Assembly (NCBI GenBank): GCA_902766365.1
Contig: CACXDC010000216.1
Coordinates: forward strand, 1 to 43,630
Origin: an uncultured Lachnospiraceae bacterium
GTDB taxonomy: Bacteria; Bacillota; Clostridia; Lachnospirales; Lachnospiraceae
Length of the DNA: 43,630 bases
Direction: 5' to 3'
Of this stretch, positions 28,159 through 36,503 are shown piece after piece. The first letter of the stretch is position 1. Each line of letters starts with the position of its first letter. The position numbers and the translations under genes are program-made. A model generated the notes under the pieces. That model worked only from the letters and a program-made list of their open reading frames with translations, was not told the DNA's origin and made no database searches.

Positions 28159-29409
28159 ATGCCTGAGGAAAGTTTACAGACAGGGAGCGCCAGGGGAAGG
28201 CTGCAGATTAATGTCACGTCTTCTCTTGGACTGATCCCGGTGAAAGATGCTACCGTTACCATATCATATTCAGGAGAGCCAAATGCTCCGATAGAAAAGC
28301 TGAGTACGGATTCCTCCGGACAGACAGAACGGGTGGAACTTGCAGCACCGCCACTGGATTACAGCGTTGAGCCCTCTGAACAGAGGCCATACAGTGAATA
28401 TACGGTTCTTGTGGAGGCACCCGGGTATGAGTCTGCCGTGGTTTCAGGAACAGAGATCCTGCCGGATACCCTGGCACTGCAGCCGGTTTCGTTAAATCCG
28501 CTGGAAACGGCAGAAGGGGATATGGAAAGTGTGGTCATTCCTGATCATACCCTCTATGGGGATTATCCGCCAAAGATCCCGGAGGCTGAGATCAAGCCGA
28601 TAGAGGAAACAGGAGAGATTGTTTTAAGCAGGGTTGTGATCCCGGAATATATCGTGGTACATGATGGTGTGCCGGATGATGCCAGTGCACAGAATTATTA
28701 CGTGAAATACAGGGATTATATCAAAAACGTGGTTTCCTCCGAAGTGTATGCCACATGGGAAGAAAATGCCATTTATGCCAATGCGCTGGCAATCATGTCC
28801 TTTACCTTAAACCGGGTCTACACGGAGTGGTACAGAGGGAAGAATTATCCATTTACCATTACCTCATCTACGGCATATGATCAGAAGTGGATTTATGGCA
28901 GAAACATTTATTCCAACATAGACAGGATCATAGACAGTATTTTTGCCAATTATCTGTCAAGACCGGGTGTGAGGCAGCCGATCTTTACTTCCTACTGTGA
29001 TGGAAGGAGAGTGACCTGTAATGGCTTAAGCCAGTGGGGTTCCCAGTATCTGGCGGGGGAAGGCTATACGCCTATTGAGATCCTGCGTTATTATTATGGA
29101 AATGATATGTATATCAATACGGCAGAGAGCATTTCCGGTGTACCGTCCTCCTATCCGGGCTATGCACTGTCAACAGGCTCATCCGGTGAAAAGGTGCGTC
29201 AGCTTCAGAATCAGCTTAACAGGATCGCACAGAACTATCCTGCAATTCCGACAATTACGGCAGATGGGATCTATGGACCTAAAACAGCAGAAGCAGTCAG
29301 GGCATTTCAGAAAATTTTCAATCTGGAGCAGACTGGTGTGACAGATTATCCAACCTGGTACAGTATTTCCAATATCTATGTCGGAGTTACCAGAATTGCA
29401 GAGCCATAG
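28159..29409 (+). CDS. SleC-like spore cortex-lytic enzyme (SpoIID domain plus peptidoglycan-binding domain)
   Basis: A 416-residue protein with the layout of clostridial SleC, the lytic transglycosylase that degrades spore cortex at germination: an N-terminal beta-rich pro-region (about 12-110, with GLIPVKDATVTIS), a SpoIID domain (about 160-315) and a C-terminal peptidoglycan-binding domain (about 338-398, SSGEKVRQLQNQLN and TADGIYGPKTAEAVRAFQ). The likely catalytic Glu is Glu195 in VVSSEVYATW. The motif CNGLSQWGSQYLAGEG is typical of SpoIID. There is no signal peptide, which fits production in the mother cell. The only reasonable start is ATG 28159, directly behind the htpG terminator. No Csp-type protease gene is adjacent. 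SleC is assigned by architecture, not proven orthology. Confidence 0.8.
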   Translation: MPEESLQTGSARGRLQINVTSSLGLIPVKDATVTISYSGEPNAPIEKLSTDSSGQTERVELAAPPLDYSVEPSEQRPYSEYTVLVEAPGYESAVVSGTEILPDTLALQPVSLNPLETAEGDMESVVIPDHTLYGDYPPKIPEAEIKPIEETGEIVLSRVVIPEYIVVHDGVPDDASAQNYYVKYRDYIKNVVSSEVYATWEENAIYANALAIMSFTLNRVYTEWYRGKNYPFTITSSTAYDQKWIYGRNIYSNIDRIIDSIFANYLSRPGVRQPIFTSYCDGRRVTCNGLSQWGSQYLAGEGYTPIEILRYYYGNDMYINTAESISGVPSSYPGYALSTGSSGEKVRQLQNQLNRIAQNYPAIPTITADGIYGPKTAEAVRAFQKIFNLEQTGVTDYPTWYSISNIYVGVTRIAEP

Positions 29410-29422
29410 GAGTGTTTTGCCA

Positions 29423-29452
29423 TTGCAGAAGAGTACTTTCTAATGGTATACT
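29423..29452 (+). promoter_or_regulatory. Extended -10 promoter of the DUF5717/DUF5716 operon
   Basis: TTGCAG (29423-29428), an 18-base spacer, and TATACT (29447-29452) preceded by TGG, giving TG at the extended -10 place. It lies about 115 bases before the chosen start. Confidence 0.6.
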
Positions 29453-29566
29453 ATTAATTAATTATGGACATTTATGCCTTTAGGCAGCAGCCCTGTGCCC
29501 CGGATTTTTCAGGGTGGAAGGACTGTCTGTCTTCTGGCGGATAAGGAAGGAAAAGGAGCTACAAAG

Positions 29567-32500
29567 GTGCTGAGTGCAGTTGACAGGATATTGGCAGGCG
29601 AATTTAATAAAGAGAACCGTTTTCTGGATTTTTCCACACCGAGGATTGAATTGTCGGTGCATAGCGGAGAGATCAGCGAAGGCTCCTTTACCATATATGG
29701 GCCAAAGAATCAGCTTACTGAGGGCAGAGTGTCTTCCTCGAGACTCAGGATGAAATGCCTGACAGAGAATTTTACCGGTTATGAGGAAGAGATCAGTTAT
29801 CAGTTCGACGCTGCAGATCTGGAAGAGGGCGAGTGCATCAAGGGGGAATTTTCCATTATCTCCAATCAGGGAGAGTATACGATCCCTTATGAAGTCAATA
29901 TTATACCGGTCTATATGGAATCCAGCCTCGGAACGATCCGTAATCTGTTTCATTTTACCAATCTGGCAAAAACCAATTTTGAGGAAGCCGTCAATCTCTT
30001 TTATTCTGCACAGTTTAAAGAGATCTTTCAGGGAGTGGACAGACAGTATTACACCATATACAGAGGCCTTTGTGCAGGGGAAAGAAGAGAACAGAATGTA
30101 GAGGAATTTCTGCTTACGATCAAGAAGAAGCAGAAAGTCCAGTTTCTCCTGGAAGAGCCTGAGATCCGTATCGATTCACCGAAAGAAAATACAGAGTACA
30201 AAGTAGTGATCAACCGGAACGGATGGGGCTATAGTGACCTTTCCGTGACGGTGGAAGGCGATTTTCTGGTACTCGAAAAGGATCATATCAGAGATGAGGA
30301 CTTCCTTGGAAACTGTTACAGGTTACCTTTTTATCTGGCAGAGGACAGGCTTCACGGGGGCAGGAATTACGGGGTCATTCATCTGAAGAATGCCTATACG
30401 GATCTGGTTGTCACAGTACAGGTTTATACATCGTCAGGAGCAGGAAGGATACCAAACCTGCGGCTGCAGAAAAAACATGCGATCTTAAGTCTGATGCAGT
30501 ATTATGAAGCTTTCCGTACCAAAAAGATCAGTGCGGCATCCTGGATGCAGGAAACAGAAAAGATCCTGGAAACACTGGTCAGTGCAGATGAGAAGGATTA
30601 TGCTTCCAGACTGATGCAGGTGCAGCTCATGGTAACCCAGGAGCGTTACAGTGAGGCAAGCTGGCTCCTGTCCAAAACAGAGGAAGCCATGGCAGGGAGC
30701 TTTGATCCGGCACTTTATTGTTACGATCTGTATCTGACCACCCTGATCAACAGAGAAGAGTCCTACATAGACGAAGTGGCACTGCAGGTGGAGAGGATCT
30801 ATACGCAGAATCCGGATAACTGGCGGATCGCCTGGCTGCTTTTATATCTTTCTGAGGAGTATGGCAAGAGTCCGTCCGCCAAATGGATGGTACTGGAGGA
30901 TCAGTATAAGCTGGGCTGTATCAGCCCGGTGCTTTATATAGAAGCATATAATCTGATGAATGCTTCACCTACGCTTCTGATGAAGCTGAGCGGCTTTGAA
31001 CTGCAGGTACTGACCTATGCACTGAAGAAAGGGCTGCTGAATCCGCAGATCGCTGAGCAGATCGTATTTCTCTCCTTTAAGGAGAAACAATATCAGGAAC
31101 AGGTATACCAGCTTCTGAAGAAGTGCTGTGAGCTTGTACCTTCAGATGAACCGCTGCGTGCGATCTGCACACTTCTGATCAAGGGCAGTAAAATGGATGA
31201 AGAAGCTTTTGAATGGTATGCAAAGGGGATTGAGAAGCAGCTTAGGATCACAAGACTGTATGAGTATTATATGATGTCGGTGAAGCTTTCTGACAAGACA
31301 GTATTGCCAAAGATCGTACTGATGTATTTTGCCTTTGACAGCAGTCTTGACAATCTGCACAATGCATTTCTGTATGCTTATGTACATAAAAACAAAGAGA
31401 CTTATCCGGAGGTTTATGAGAGCTACAAGGAGCAGATCGAACGCTTTGTGGTCTTTCAGATGATGAAAGGAAAGAATAACAAATGGCTTTCCTATCTGTA
31501 CCGGAATATCGTAACAGAAAGCATGGTTACAGAAGAAACGGCAGGAGGCCTGGCTGAGGCGGTCTTTATTCACAGACTTCAGATCAGAAGGACGGATATC
31601 CACCGGGTTATCATCGTATATGAGAAGCAGAAGAGTGAGGTGGCATTCCAGGTAGGCAGCAGGGAGGTTTATCTGCCGGTTTATGGAAGTGACTGCCGTA
31701 TTTTCCTGGAGGATGGCAGTGGCTGCCGGTACTGCAGGGAAGAAGATTATGAACTGGAAAGAATGCTGATCCCGGACAAGCTTGCCAAAATGGCAGCAGT
31801 TTATATCACAGATGATGTGAATCTGGATATCTGGATGTGTGAAAGAGGACGCGTACTGGCTGTTATCAATGAAGAGAATGTGCAGCTCATGAAGCGTGTA
31901 TGCGGCTATGAGGTCCTGGAAGATAATATGCGCCGGGATATCCGTATGAATCTGATACGGTATTTCTATGAAAAAGACAAAATGCAGGAACTTGACAGTT
32001 TCCTTTCGGAAATAACCTATGAAATGGCAGAGAATTCCTGCTATGCAGAGATCCTCAGTTTCCTTATCATGCGTGGTATGTATGAAAAGGCCTATGAATG
32101 GATCCGCAAGAGAGGCGGAGAAGGAATCGATGCCAAAAATCTGATGAGACTCTGCAGCAGACTGATCCAGATGGAACTGGCAGAACCGGATCCCGTGTTG
32201 ACAGCTCTTGTCTATCTGGCATTCCAGAGTGGAAAATATGATGAAAATCTCCTGAAATATCTGAATAGCTATTATAATGGCTGTGTGAAGAACATGAGAG
32301 ATATTTACAAGGCAGCCGTGGCATTTGGCGTGGATGCCTATGCGATCAGTGAAAGGATACTGATCCAGCTTCTTTATACAGGAGCCTATATCAGTGAAAA
32401 GACGGAAATCTTCCGGTATTATGTGGCAGGTGGTGCGGGAACAGACGTGGAGATGGCGTTCCTTGCACAGAGCTGTTATGACTACTTTGTAGATGACAAG

Positions 32501-33115
32501 ATCACAGATGATTATCTGCTGAAGGAACTGCAGAAGATCATAGACAGGCGGGAGGAGGTACCTCTTGTATGCAAGCTAGCCTATACCCGTTATTACGCTG
32601 AAAACAAGGAACTTCTGGATAAGCATGTGACAGAGGATCTGATCCCGTATCTGCGGGAACTGATCGCTGCAGATCTCCTGTTCCCTTATTATAAGGAGTA
32701 TGCAGATAAGATTTCTTTTATGCGGCAGTTTGCAGATAAGACCATGATCCGTTACAGGCTGGAGAATGGTGGCAAGGCAGTGATCCATTACCTTCTGGAG
32801 GGAAGTGACGGAGAATATGTCATGGAGGAAATGAAGGAAATGTTTGGCGGTATCTGCGTGAAGCAGTTTATCCTGTTCTTTGGAGAGAAGCTGCAGTATT
32901 ACATTACGGAGACAGAAGAGGATAAGGAACACCTGACAGAGAGCGGTACCTTGAGCCGCAGTGATACAGACAGGGAGCAGAAGGAAAGTAAATACAGTCT
33001 GATCAATGATATTGCAATAGGCAGGACCCTGGATGATGAAAATACCATGGGAGATCTGCTCCATGAATATTTTGAGAGGGAATTTATGGTAGAAAAACTC
33101 TTCCATATTGTATAA
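29567..33115 (+). CDS. Giant DUF5717-like protein: beta-sandwich domains and alpha-solenoid
   Basis: A 1182-residue protein of unknown function. I choose GTG 29567 because AAAAGGAG lies eight bases ahead and the sequence after it (AVDRILAGEFNKENRFLDFS) looks like the start of DUF5717 proteins; an in-frame ATG at 29474 has no ribosome site. In order: a beta-sandwich (about 15-115, STPRIELSVHSGEISEG), a short helical part, a second beta domain (about 205-305), a long TPR-like alpha-solenoid (about 315-665), a beta-rich insert (about 670-780, VIIVYEKQKSEVAFQ), a second solenoid (about 800-1090) and a conserved-looking C-terminus (DENTMGDLLHEYFEREFM). No signal peptide or membrane helix is seen, so it is cytoplasmic. 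It is the first of four genes in a row; its size and repeats suggest a scaffold. The DUF number is from memory. Confidence 0.85.
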   Translation: MLSAVDRILAGEFNKENRFLDFSTPRIELSVHSGEISEGSFTIYGPKNQLTEGRVSSSRLRMKCLTENFTGYEEEISYQFDAADLEEGECIKGEFSIISNQGEYTIPYEVNIIPVYMESSLGTIRNLFHFTNLAKTNFEEAVNLFYSAQFKEIFQGVDRQYYTIYRGLCAGERREQNVEEFLLTIKKKQKVQFLLEEPEIRIDSPKENTEYKVVINRNGWGYSDLSVTVEGDFLVLEKDHIRDEDFLGNCYRLPFYLAEDRLHGGRNYGVIHLKNAYTDLVVTVQVYTSSGAGRIPNLRLQKKHAILSLMQYYEAFRTKKISAASWMQETEKILETLVSADEKDYASRLMQVQLMVTQERYSEASWLLSKTEEAMAGSFDPALYCYDLYLTTLINREESYIDEVALQVERIYTQNPDNWRIAWLLLYLSEEYGKSPSAKWMVLEDQYKLGCISPVLYIEAYNLMNASPTLLMKLSGFELQVLTYALKKGLLNPQIAEQIVFLSFKEKQYQEQVYQLLKKCCELVPSDEPLRAICTLLIKGSKMDEEAFEWYAKGIEKQLRITRLYEYYMMSVKLSDKTVLPKIVLMYFAFDSSLDNLHNAFLYAYVHKNKETYPEVYESYKEQIERFVVFQMMKGKNNKWLSYLYRNIVTESMVTEETAGGLAEAVFIHRLQIRRTDIHRVIIVYEKQKSEVAFQVGSREVYLPVYGSDCRIFLEDGSGCRYCREEDYELERMLIPDKLAKMAAVYITDDVNLDIWMCERGRVLAVINEENVQLMKRVCGYEVLEDNMRRDIRMNLIRYFYEKDKMQELDSFLSEITYEMAENSCYAEILSFLIMRGMYEKAYEWIRKRGGEGIDAKNLMRLCSRLIQMELAEPDPVLTALVYLAFQSGKYDENLLKYLNSYYNGCVKNMRDIYKAAVAFGVDAYAISERILIQLLYTGAYISEKTEIFRYYVAGGAGTDVEMAFLAQSCYDYFVDDKITDDYLLKELQKIIDRREEVPLVCKLAYTRYYAENKELLDKHVTEDLIPYLRELIAADLLFPYYKEYADKISFMRQFADKTMIRYRLENGGKAVIHYLLEGSDGEYVMEEMKEMFGGICVKQFILFFGEKLQYYITETEEDKEHLTESGTLSRSDTDREQKESKYSLINDIAIGRTLDDENTMGDLLHEYFEREFMVEKLFHIV

Positions 33116-33127
33116 AGGAGAAAAGTC

Positions 33128-34453
33128 ATGTTCGCAGGGGTAAAGGAACAGACAGAAAAGAAAAACGGTAAAAAAATAGCAGTCGGATATGATCTTGGCA
33201 GTGTGGCTTCCCAGATCAGTTACTGCACACTGGAGGAACAGAAGGTGGAAACGGTATCCAGTGTGGCAGGCACGGAGCAGTACAATATTCCCACTGTACT
33301 CTGCAAACGGAGAGGGGTAAACCAGTGGTTTTATGGTAAGGAAGCACTGAAATATGAAAGAGAGGAAGATGGTATTCTGATAGGGGATCTGGTGGAGCTC
33401 GCCAAAAGGGGAGAAGAGGTAGTCGTGGAAACAGAAAGCTATGATCCGGCAGCCCTGCTGACACTGTATGTCAAACGGAGCCTTTCCCTCCTTTCCCTTC
33501 ATGTTTCTTTAAGTCAGATCGAAGTGATGATGTTTACGGTAGAGGAACTGACACCGGAGATGGTCGATGTTCTTTCCAAGGTAGTGGCAGGACTTTCCCT
33601 GCAGACGAAAAAAGTGCTGTTTCAGAGCAGGGCAGAAAGCTTCTATTATTATATGCTGTATCAGCCAAAGGAACTGTGGCAGAACCAGGTCATGATCTTT
33701 GATTACAGCAGAGAGATGAAAAGCATCTGTCTTGAATGCAACCCCATGACAACACCACAGGTGGTACTGATCAACAGCAATATATATCCGGATATGGAGA
33801 GAGTTACCTTTGTCAGGGGAGATTCACCGGAGGCAGAGGAAGAACGGAAGCAGCAGGAGAGGGAACTGGATGAAAAATTCCTGCAGATAGCAGAAGCGGA
33901 GATGGAAGGCAGCCTGTTTTCCACGGTATATCTGTTGGGCGATGGATTCAAGGAAGGCTGGGCAAAGGAGTCCCTGCGGTATCTTTGCCGGAACAGAAGG
34001 GTATTTCAGGGAAATAACCTGTACAGTAAAGGAGCCTGCTATGGAGCCATTGAGAGGGTAAGCCCAGGCGGAGAAGGAAAAAAGTATGTATATCTTGGGG
34101 CAGATAAGCTGAAATCCAATGTAGGCATGAAGGTGGAGAGAAGAGGGGAGGATTCTTACTTTGCCATTCTGGATGCCGGGCAGAACTGGTATGAAGCAGC
34201 TACAGATTTTGAAGTGATCCTGAGAAAAGGAAACAGCCTTGACTTTCATATCACACCGCTGACAGGTGAAAATATCACAGATAAAAAGATTGAACTGGAG
34301 GGGCTGCCGGAGAGACCTTCTGGTACTACAAGACTTAAGATCCATGTGGAAATGGAATCTGTAAATCAGGTAACGGCAACCATAGAAGATATGGGATTTG
34401 GAGAATTTTTCCCATCCAGCGGCAAGGGCTGGCGCAAGACCATTACTGTCTGA
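33128..34453 (+). CDS. DUF5716-like protein with an Hsp70/actin-type fold
   Basis: A 441-residue protein, ATG 33128 with AAAGGAG before it and 12 bases after the giant gene. The signature blocks of Hsp70-type ATPases appear in order: phosphate-1 AVGYDLGSVASQ (Asp22), IPTVLC (about 56-61, as in PSVV), phosphate-2 MIFDYSREM (Asp192) and adenosine LLGDGFKEGW (about 269-278), followed by SKGACYGAI. The Gly-rich GGGT of phosphate-2 is replaced by SREM and the GG of the adenosine motif is broken. Nucleotide may be bound weakly or not hydrolysed. Residues about 315-441 form a beta-rich C-terminal domain in the place of the Hsp70 substrate domain. It is probably a partner of the neighbouring solenoid and TPR proteins. 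Function unknown. Confidence 0.82.
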   Translation: MFAGVKEQTEKKNGKKIAVGYDLGSVASQISYCTLEEQKVETVSSVAGTEQYNIPTVLCKRRGVNQWFYGKEALKYEREEDGILIGDLVELAKRGEEVVVETESYDPAALLTLYVKRSLSLLSLHVSLSQIEVMMFTVEELTPEMVDVLSKVVAGLSLQTKKVLFQSRAESFYYYMLYQPKELWQNQVMIFDYSREMKSICLECNPMTTPQVVLINSNIYPDMERVTFVRGDSPEAEEERKQQERELDEKFLQIAEAEMEGSLFSTVYLLGDGFKEGWAKESLRYLCRNRRVFQGNNLYSKGACYGAIERVSPGGEGKKYVYLGADKLKSNVGMKVERRGEDSYFAILDAGQNWYEAATDFEVILRKGNSLDFHITPLTGENITDKKIELEGLPERPSGTTRLKIHVEMESVNQVTATIEDMGFGEFFPSSGKGWRKTITV

Positions 34454-34471
34454 GGGAAAGGGAGCAGGTTC

Positions 34472-35305
34472 ATGGAGAATGTATTATTATGCACAGGTAA
34501 ATATGCAGAAAAACCATATTATTTTGAACATGCAGGTATGAATGTATACTGTGTGGAGGAGCTGTGCTATCTGCTGGCCAGTAATCCTTTTATGATAGAT
34601 GCAGGGATCATGGATAAGCAGTTGGTACAGTGGCTGTATGAAGAATGTGGACTGAAGGAGCTTTCCCATCAGCTTCTGCAGCTTTTCCAGCGTGGATGCC
34701 AGCCTGGAGTTTTCGTGGATACGATTCTGGATTATACCGGTTATTGCAGCAGGGAAGACAAGGAACGGATCGATGAGGTATTAAAGGGAAGCGCAGGACT
34801 TGATCAGTATGAGAAGCAGAAGCGTCAGGGAGATTATCTGATGAAAAATGGCAGGTATCAGCTTGCGGTACGTGAATATGAAAAGCTGCTTTCCATTCTG
34901 CCGGAGGCCGAAAAGGAGCTGATCCCGTCAGTGTATCATAATCTTGGTGTGGCCTGCTGCAGACTGTTCCGGTTTGAAAGTGGAGCCACTTATCTGAAGA
35001 AAGCCTATGAGCTTTCCGGAAGGGAGGAGTCAGGGATCCAGTATCTGGAAGCGCTGCGTGAGCAGCTGACAGAGGCAGACTATGTTTCTTTTATTGCTGA
35101 CCACAGAGAATATTATGAACTGTCCATGAAGGTGGAAAAACTCTATGAGATGGCAAGAGGACAGTTTGAGGCTACGAGGGAAAACCGTATGCTGTCAGCA
35201 CTGAAGATCTACAGGGATGAAGGAAATACGGGATCCTATTATGAGGAGATCGACAAGATCATAGCAAGACTTAAGGATGATTACCGGGAGAGCGTGGCAC
35301 AGTAG
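34472..35305 (+). CDS. Small TPR protein of the DUF5716/5717 operon
   Basis: A 277-residue soluble protein, 18 bases after the Hsp70-like gene, start ATG 34472 behind GGGAAAGGGAG. The N-terminal part (about 1-100) is alpha/beta with ENVLLCTGKYAEKPYYFEHA and a helical bundle. About residues 110-190 form two TPR-like repeats (GDYLMKNGRYQLAVREYEKL and VYHNLGVACCRLFRFES). The C-terminus is a long charged helix with TGSYYEEIDKIIARLKDD. TPR proteins usually act as adaptors, and its place behind an Hsp70-fold protein suggests a link between the operon's other products. I do not recognise a named family. Confidence 0.8.
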   Translation: MENVLLCTGKYAEKPYYFEHAGMNVYCVEELCYLLASNPFMIDAGIMDKQLVQWLYEECGLKELSHQLLQLFQRGCQPGVFVDTILDYTGYCSREDKERIDEVLKGSAGLDQYEKQKRQGDYLMKNGRYQLAVREYEKLLSILPEAEKELIPSVYHNLGVACCRLFRFESGATYLKKAYELSGREESGIQYLEALREQLTEADYVSFIADHREYYELSMKVEKLYEMARGQFEATRENRMLSALKIYRDEGNTGSYYEEIDKIIARLKDDYRESVAQ

Positions 35306-35318
35306 GTAAGGAGAGCAT

Positions 35319-36503
35319 ATGAGCTTTTTAAATAAGATATTTCCCTGGAAAAAGAACCGGGAAGACCCGATATATGAGATCGATGACTGGAGTGAGATCG
35401 TTTATGACCGGGACGATCTTCAGATCAATGATAAGCAGCAGAGAGAGGATTATATCAAAGGATGCCTCGAGCAGATCGCTGAAGCATCTACAGAACTGGA
35501 GAATCTGAAGCATGAGTATAACATGGTCACCTCCTATCTGAAGGATATGGAGGAGATCGAATCACTGCCGGAAGAGGAGATGCTCCTTCTGCAGAGCTAT
35601 GCCAGAAGGATCGAAGAACTTTCCGATAAGCAGTCAGACTATGCCAGAAGAGAACGGAAGCTGGATGAAGCAAAATACCGTCAGATGGAGCGGATGGAGG
35701 ATGAAGTCCAGGAGGGCTGTGAGAAGCTCCTGAAAGCAGAAGAATATCAGGAACTGATCAAAAGGGATCTGAAAAGGCTGGATGGAGAAAAACAGGCCTA
35801 TCAGTACAGAAAGGCAGAACTGCATCATATTCTGGAAGATTCCAGAAGTATGGCCATTATCTGTACCATAGCTGTGATCATCTGTATTTTTGTACTGCTG
35901 ATCCTGCAATATGGTTTTTCCATGAATACGGGGATCGGCTATGTGGCGGCGGCAGCACTCGGGGCAGCAGCGATCACGGCAGTTTTTCTCAAGTATAACA
36001 ATGCTTCCGAGGAGCTCTCCAGGGTGGAAAACGGGATCGGAAGGATTATAAGACTTCAGAATACAGTAAAGATCCGGTATGTGAACAATACGCATCTGCT
36101 GGATTACCTTTATATGAAATATCAGGTCAGCAGTGCCAGGGAACTGCAGAAGGATTATCAGGACTATCAGCAGGAAAGAGAAGAGAGGGAGCACTACTAC
36201 AGTGCAGAGAAGGATCTGGATGAATGTCAGAAGGATCTGATCCATGAACTGAGAAGATTCCAGATACAGGATCCCATGATCTGGATCCATCAGACCAGAG
36301 GACTCCTTGACAAAAAGGAAATGGTGGAGATCCGTCACAGTCTGATCATCAGGCGGCAGTCCCTGCGCCGGAGAATGGATTATAATAAAGAAGTGGTTGC
36401 CGGAAAGGCACAGGATGAGATCAAGGATCTGGCGAAGAAATACCCCAGATATGCAAAGGAGATCATGGACACCGTGGATGAATACGAAAAGGATTTTTCT
36501 TGA
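35319..36503 (+). CDS. Coiled-coil protein with a two-helix membrane hairpin
   Basis: A 394-residue protein, 13 bases after the TPR gene, start ATG 35319 with AAGGAG ahead. Residues 1-40 are acidic and contain NKIFPWKKNREDPIYEIDDW. Residues about 40-170 are a long charged coiled coil. Two hydrophobic helices at about 178-198 and 204-224 are separated by a short NTG turn, so both ends stay on the same, most likely cytoplasmic, side. A second coiled coil (about 228-355) and a helical tail follow. It is the only member of the four-gene set with membrane segments and so is the likely anchor that brings the other three to the membrane. No known family recognised. Confidence 0.82.
   Translation: MSFLNKIFPWKKNREDPIYEIDDWSEIVYDRDDLQINDKQQREDYIKGCLEQIAEASTELENLKHEYNMVTSYLKDMEEIESLPEEEMLLLQSYARRIEELSDKQSDYARRERKLDEAKYRQMERMEDEVQEGCEKLLKAEEYQELIKRDLKRLDGEKQAYQYRKAELHHILEDSRSMAIICTIAVIICIFVLLILQYGFSMNTGIGYVAAAALGAAAITAVFLKYNNASEELSRVENGIGRIIRLQNTVKIRYVNNTHLLDYLYMKYQVSSARELQKDYQDYQQEREEREHYYSAEKDLDECQKDLIHELRRFQIQDPMIWIHQTRGLLDKKEMVEIRHSLIIRRQSLRRRMDYNKEVVAGKAQDEIKDLAKKYPRYAKEIMDTVDEYEKDFS

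Follow-up and report, generated by a model that had tools for sequence, protein, structure and literature searches.

The four-gene operon on the forward strand of the window (the whole 43,630-nucleotide stretch of DNA that was analyzed) is rather probably a reduced, family-specific descendant of a multi-Hsp70 machine found at the level of the order, and it would now act as a nucleotide-independent housekeeping assembly scaffold. Three observations favor a derivation by reduction: an expanded operon occurs elsewhere, none of the additional genes of that operon (I, G, T, and W) was found at the loci of the window's family, and protein B is sister to the Hsp70 T. At the level of sequence, two operon forms, a conserved gene order, the erosion of the ATPase motifs in B, and fusions of B with C are established.

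Gene A (DUF5717) extends from 29567 to 33115 and encodes 1182 aa from a probable GTG start, as judged from its Pfam families and the N-termini of its homologues; then come B (DUF5716, 33128 to 34453, 441 aa), C (a TPR protein, 34472 to 35305, 277 aa), and D (35319 to 36503, 394 aa). All four genes are on the forward strand, and the ORF coordinates confirm the head-to-tail order and the gaps of 12, 18, and 13 bases given in the preliminary description. The promoter proposed there can be read by inspection on the same strand at 29423 to 29452, as TTGCAG, an 18-bp spacer, and an extended -10 box TGGTATACT at 29444 to 29452; this box, however, is missing from the list of a consensus promoter scan, so the promoter stays putative. 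Read from the ATG at 29474, the ORF of gene A (29474 to 33115, forward strand) has 1213 aa. Translation probably starts not at this ATG but at the GTG at 29567, since 10 of the 15 other N-termini listed from the homologue alignment (41 proteins retained, of 1080 to 1260 aa) begin at the VLSAVDRIL of the window protein, with which this GTG, preceded by AAGGAG, coincides. In the gene upstream of A (28159 to 29409), a peptidoglycan-binding domain is combined with part of a SpoIID/LytB domain; a functional link with this gene was rejected, because such a gene is near A in only 6 of 47 loci and on either strand.

In other families of the order, the operon takes an expanded form. All 60 locus records (49 distinct), read from the neighborhoods of 20 B-matching genomes and from named loci, follow the order A(-A)-I-G-B-T-W-C(-D), either with the full set of genes or with some of them. 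In the order sample, 70 of 146 genomes matched in the search with B; 15 are same-family genomes with one match each, and 55 come from other families, 48 of them with at least two matches when pieces of one gene are counted apart. Among the carriers with a name are Defluviitalea phaphyphila and MAGs that bear the labels Candidatus Epulonipiscium and Defluviitaleaceae. In this form, A is either one gene or two, of about 390 and 900 aa. By Pfam, I, T, and W of locus L096 are HSP70 proteins, W with an additional vWA domain whose metal-site motif DxTxS is found in 39 of 39 W sequences. I, T, and W are lidless Hsp70s, the HSP70 matches of L096 stopping at profile positions 477 to 503 of 599, and their ATPase motifs are intact (43, 46, and 39 sequences, respectively). 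G of L096 and L101 is a long coiled coil that ends in a GrpE domain, over the PF01025 cut-off of 25.8 bits in both (42.9 and 37.6 bits, E 5.4e-11 and 2.2e-9). An occurrence of G-like GrpE proteins across the phylum was considered and rejected: none of the matches, from 17 of 398 genomes, begins before position 396 of 592, and their frames, 184 to 240 aa long, are those of ordinary GrpE; no match came from the five genomes of the window's family in this sample.

The reduced and expanded operons occupy the same genomic site, as seen from their valS and CobD-like neighbors. The valS gene directly follows C or D in 6 of 47 reduced loci, as A-B-C-(D)-valS, and it ends the expanded locus L086, A-A-I-G-B-T-W-C-D-valS; a gene for a CobD-like aminotransferase runs divergently from A in 17 of the 47 reduced loci and in 18 of the 60 expanded records.

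Some further features of the expanded loci were recorded. In L086 (genome G779), W and C are each read as two frames and G has only 279 aa (L086:5340-7384, L086:4205-5231); the B of this genome is the closest to the window B among the other families of the order sample. Eleven expanded records from 9 distinct loci (L155:3013-4308, L157:1446-2786, L169:440-1768, L140:2771-4156, and seven more records) encode, about one gene upstream of A, a protein of at most 461 aa. By eye, it combines several membrane helices with a long coiled-coil tail, a layout that gives the impression of MotA/TolQ-type proteins, and the four that were scanned had no sensible Pfam match over the cut-off. In one Candidatus Epulonipiscium MAG, a Cas6-like gene (L096:16032-16775; the same locus as L142) comes after the expanded operon.

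Protein B exceeds the cut-off of the Pfam family PF18980 (DUF5716_C) with 371.6 against 34.7 bits (E 2.9e-111), as its tentative naming as DUF5716 had anticipated. The Hsp70 fold assigned to it from the first reading is upheld by the predicted structure (mean pLDDT 78, pTM 0.68), whose best PDB matches are DnaK/Hsp70, and by intermediate sequences that connect B to Hsp70; in the Pfam search, the window B gives no HSP70 row up to an E of 1, and the expanded-form B of L096 matches HSP70 with E 3.3e-22. The fold comprises a nucleotide-binding domain and an SBD-beta-like strand domain, the latter at model residues 330 to 440; the model ends in these strands and no helix follows, so the alpha-helical lid is absent. 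Conserved phosphate and adenosine motifs were not found in B. The ATPase motifs are eroded in the B of both operon forms (56 and 45 sequences, from a motif table that was filtered by protein length and counts records, some of them duplicates), and in the reduced B (n = 45) the DLGTTN, K, E, and DLGGGTFD positions are scattered. B is probably not a working chaperone ATPase; it may retain residual nucleotide binding, as in most B the first motif still has its D and the third still has one G.

The split {T,B} versus {I,W,DnaK} has a support of 100/100 in a tree of 65 of the 239 motif-table sequences, mostly a random draw, and a second tree of 40 rows agrees, with long B branches and with long-branch joins flagged by the tree tool in both. 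Furthermore, DUF5716_C is present on T and absent from I and W (L096, Pfam). The tree and this shared C-terminal domain make B the sister of T. A gain of I, G, T, and W in the other families, instead of their loss in the family of the window, appears disfavored, for which the T-B sister relation is the one reason.

An alternative is that B is a nucleotide-sensing co-chaperone of DnaK, in the manner of an Hsp110-like exchange factor, and that C is a TPR co-chaperone that may bridge to HtpG. This would agree with the Hsp70 fold of B, with the Hsp110/Sse1 chains among the folds that it matches, with the presence of a DnaK-type Hsp70 in the window genome (in pieces on two contigs), and with htpG, which lies 1.4 kb upstream of the operon in the window. 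The match rows of B within 1 Z are tied, so that they show no special kinship with the atypical eukaryotic Hsp70s Ssz1 and Hsp110. However, htpG falls inside the fetched stretch at only 3 of 47 loci; its nearness therefore looks like chance, as the preliminary description had allowed, and a functional link between htpG and the operon was rejected. Since the ATPase motifs of B are eroded as well, and no J-domain was found by Pfam in the scanned operon proteins, the co-chaperone role is considered unlikely.

Protein A matches PF18984 and PF18983 (DUF5717_N and DUF5717) with 1033.9 and 325.3 bits against a cut-off of 25, over almost all of its length, and thus belongs to DUF5717 as first supposed. 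Its predicted structure (pLDDT 79, pTM 0.44) consists of two ASH/PapD-like beta sandwiches, a helical solenoid, a beta domain, a second solenoid, and another beta domain. The N-terminal part has the beta-sandwich fold of the HYDIN/CEP192/PapD type, and the search of the window A against Pfam gave no ASH/PapD-like family row at E<=1. The solenoids are TPR-like, and the sequence profile of A matched designed TPR/PPR proteins. No match was obtained from an NCBIfam search with A, B, and D. Short A proteins (1095 to 1106 aa), in which a segment of about 86 residues is missing, occur at L052, L053, L054, L056, and L080, and D is absent at all five of these loci.

The fold comparison also matches the N-terminal domain pair of A with eukaryotic axoneme and centrosome proteins. 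Together with the common fold of Hsp70 and actin, this would be in keeping with a B that forms actin-like polymers and with an operon that builds a cytoskeletal element. Nevertheless, ASH/PapD-like matches are common and no indicator of function, and B keeps its SBD-beta-like domain and clusters with the Hsp70 T, so that we regard such a polymer as quite unlikely.

Protein C was described as a TPR protein from the start, and Pfam agrees, with matches to TPR families from residue 118 on; its orthologues are present in the expanded operon. In L070 and L264, which represent two genera outside that of the window, B and C form a single ORF. The two fusion proteins are 24% identical and have different nearest relatives, and the fusions arose independently. 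The fusion in two genera suggests that B and C touch each other, and it does so for that pair only.

Protein D was described as a coiled coil with two adjacent membrane helices, and hydropathy agrees: the hydrophobic segments, at residues 178 to 196 and 206 to 224, are adjacent, and 30 of 30 homologues have exactly two. D has nothing over the cut-off in Pfam, and a sequence profile search gave no convincing match. Its presence depends on the lineage: D was found at 53 of 107 reduced loci and not found at 54, some of which are cut by contig ends. When 26 D-less genomes were searched whole, with six marginal matches (E 2e-4 to 5e-3) counted as absence, D was nowhere in 25, and the 26th had a second locus copy with D. 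Because D is missing from so many loci and genomes, tethering to the membrane does not belong to the core of the system, and the tether that D was first suggested to provide is not general. For the expanded form, D was found elsewhere in the genome in six of six cases in which the locus lacked it.

Within the family of the window, 200 genomes, one for each of 200 sampled genera, were searched. The DUF5717 C-terminal model matched 195 of them, and 162 of the 165 good ones, and the DUF5717_N model added two of the five misses, so that A is present in 197; one of the three A-less genomes has B, and neither A nor B was detected in the other two. In the phylum sample, DUF5717 matched 6 of 398 genomes, five of the same family and a sixth outside it whose match is weak (E 6.5e-4) and below the cut-off. 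All 6 DUF5716 matches in the class sample (196 genomes) are from the same family, and the DUF5717_N model matched 74 of the 146 genomes of the order sample, 15 of them same-family.

The expectation that the four genes stay together in other genomes holds for A, B, and C and fails for D. The order A-B-C is kept in 104 of the 107 loci of the family, which come from 106 genomes (G526 contributes two) and are a hand-picked set of mostly the best-scoring DUF5717 matches with listed positions rather than a random sample. The three exceptions are a locus at a contig end, an A-B pair without an adjoining C, and an A alone with B on another contig. As neither A nor B was detected in two of the 200 genomes, one splits them, and one has A-B without an adjoining C, the gene set is not strictly obligatory. 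The 107 reduced loci yielded no call of I, G, T, or W, and G is absent from five same-family genomes searched whole. An HSP70 search of 18 genomes of the window's genus returned DnaK-type proteins and MreB-like matches; other Hsp70s occur in 3 of the 18, and four of these proteins fall with DnaK in the tree and apart from I, T, and W.

The distances of A and B correlate with those of rpoB (Mantel r 0.66 and 0.37, 0 of 2000 permutations each) in 28 of 30 chosen genomes, 29 of which have rpoB, with mean identities of 26% for A, 28% for B, and 80% for rpoB; the valS distances show no correlation with A or B in 14 loci (r 0.10 and -0.14). A plasmid search gave no match to the operon, and the PADLOC models gave none for A, B, and C and a marginal one for D (DruC1, E 0.021). 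Because the divergence tracks rpoB and there is neither a plasmid match nor a PADLOC model for A, B, or C, a mobile defense system is unlikely. We read this pattern as vertical, housekeeping inheritance of fast-evolving proteins. Four records named 'Bacteriophage sp.' match A. Two of them, MT835486.1 (L276) and MT835988.1 (L277), carry A-B-C-D, followed by valS frames in the former, and for these reasons look like, and probably are, bacterial chromosome; a mobile or phage origin of the operon was rejected, the two of the four phage-labelled records that were examined both having bacterial content.

The nearest described systems are the HSP70/GrpE variants of the GAP1-N2 GTPase-centric conflict systems, which combine Hsp70, GrpE, vWA, and TPR/FNIII proteins and repeated beta-sandwich domains (Kaur et al. 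2020, PMC7159879). The operon might be an anti-phage or conflict system of this GTPase/HSP70/vWA type. A locus of that sort is present in a genome of the window's genus (L126:1417-12144, G916). It encodes two Hsp70s, one of them carrying vWA, along with a zinc-ribbon/TPR/fn3 protein, a DO-GTPase-like protein, and an unknown protein of 836 aa, and its adjoining genes look mobile-element-like. In addition, two of six expanded-form proteins, T and W, match the PADLOC candidate PDC-M61B (4.5e-10 and 2.7e-6), within their Hsp70 domain. Against this, the operon is family-wide, with the rpoB-like divergence and the lack of plasmid and PADLOC matches described above; Pfam finds no GTPase or GAP1 domain in A to D of the window or in ten proteins of L096 and L101; and the Hsp70s of L126 group with DnaK, not with I, T, W, or B. 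L126 is a different system from the window operon, for which a conflict role is very unlikely.

Pfam gives no function for DUF5717 and DUF5716. The open-access literature searched holds no paper on DUF5717 and, for DUF5716, one that by its listing concerns an unrelated subject, and a link of either family to Hsp70 or to the expanded Hsp70/GrpE operon is absent from it and from the family descriptions. The operon resembles the Hsp70/DnaK-GrpE system in the Hsp70 fold of B and, in its expanded form, in three motif-intact Hsp70s accompanied by a GrpE-domain protein, but its Hsp70s have no lid, B is without ATPase motifs, no J-domain is reported, and an ASH/TPR scaffold and a membrane coiled coil are added.

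Returning to the reduced descendant that we favor, the ancestral operon, A-I-G-B-T-W-C-D, would have encoded a large ASH/TPR scaffold (A), lidless motif-intact Hsp70s (I, T, and W), a coiled coil with a GrpE domain (G), a pseudo-Hsp70 from the lineage of T (B), an adaptor with TPRs (C), and a coiled coil with two TM helices (D). In the expanded form, I, T, and W would cycle ATP, with G presumably as their exchange factor; the window's family would have lost I, G, T, and W. In this family, B would bind little or no ATP and, docked on C, would be a rigid structural part; A would use its solenoids and ASH domains to gather B-C and clients; and D, where it is kept (about half of the loci), would anchor the assembly to the membrane. 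Of the membrane-tethered scaffold or chaperone-like machine first envisaged, the chaperone theme is thus strengthened by the expanded operon, while the tether is not core and B is probably not a chaperone ATPase. A bolder version, which we put forward tentatively and hold to be doubtful, is that of a near-universal cell-organizing scaffold built on a dead Hsp70 locked in a single conformation on its TPR partner and held by an ASH/TPR solenoid, with the motors stripped, the machine itself being kept in other families of the order, among them Defluviitaleaceae and Candidatus Epulonipiscium.

The proposed history would give an origin and a testable mechanism to the uncharacterized DUF5716 and DUF5717, one of which occurs in nearly all of the family's sampled genera (197 of 200). 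The ATPase-rich operon of the related families and the stripped operon of the window's family form a natural series, which lets one ask what role an Hsp70-derived protein has once its motor partners are gone.
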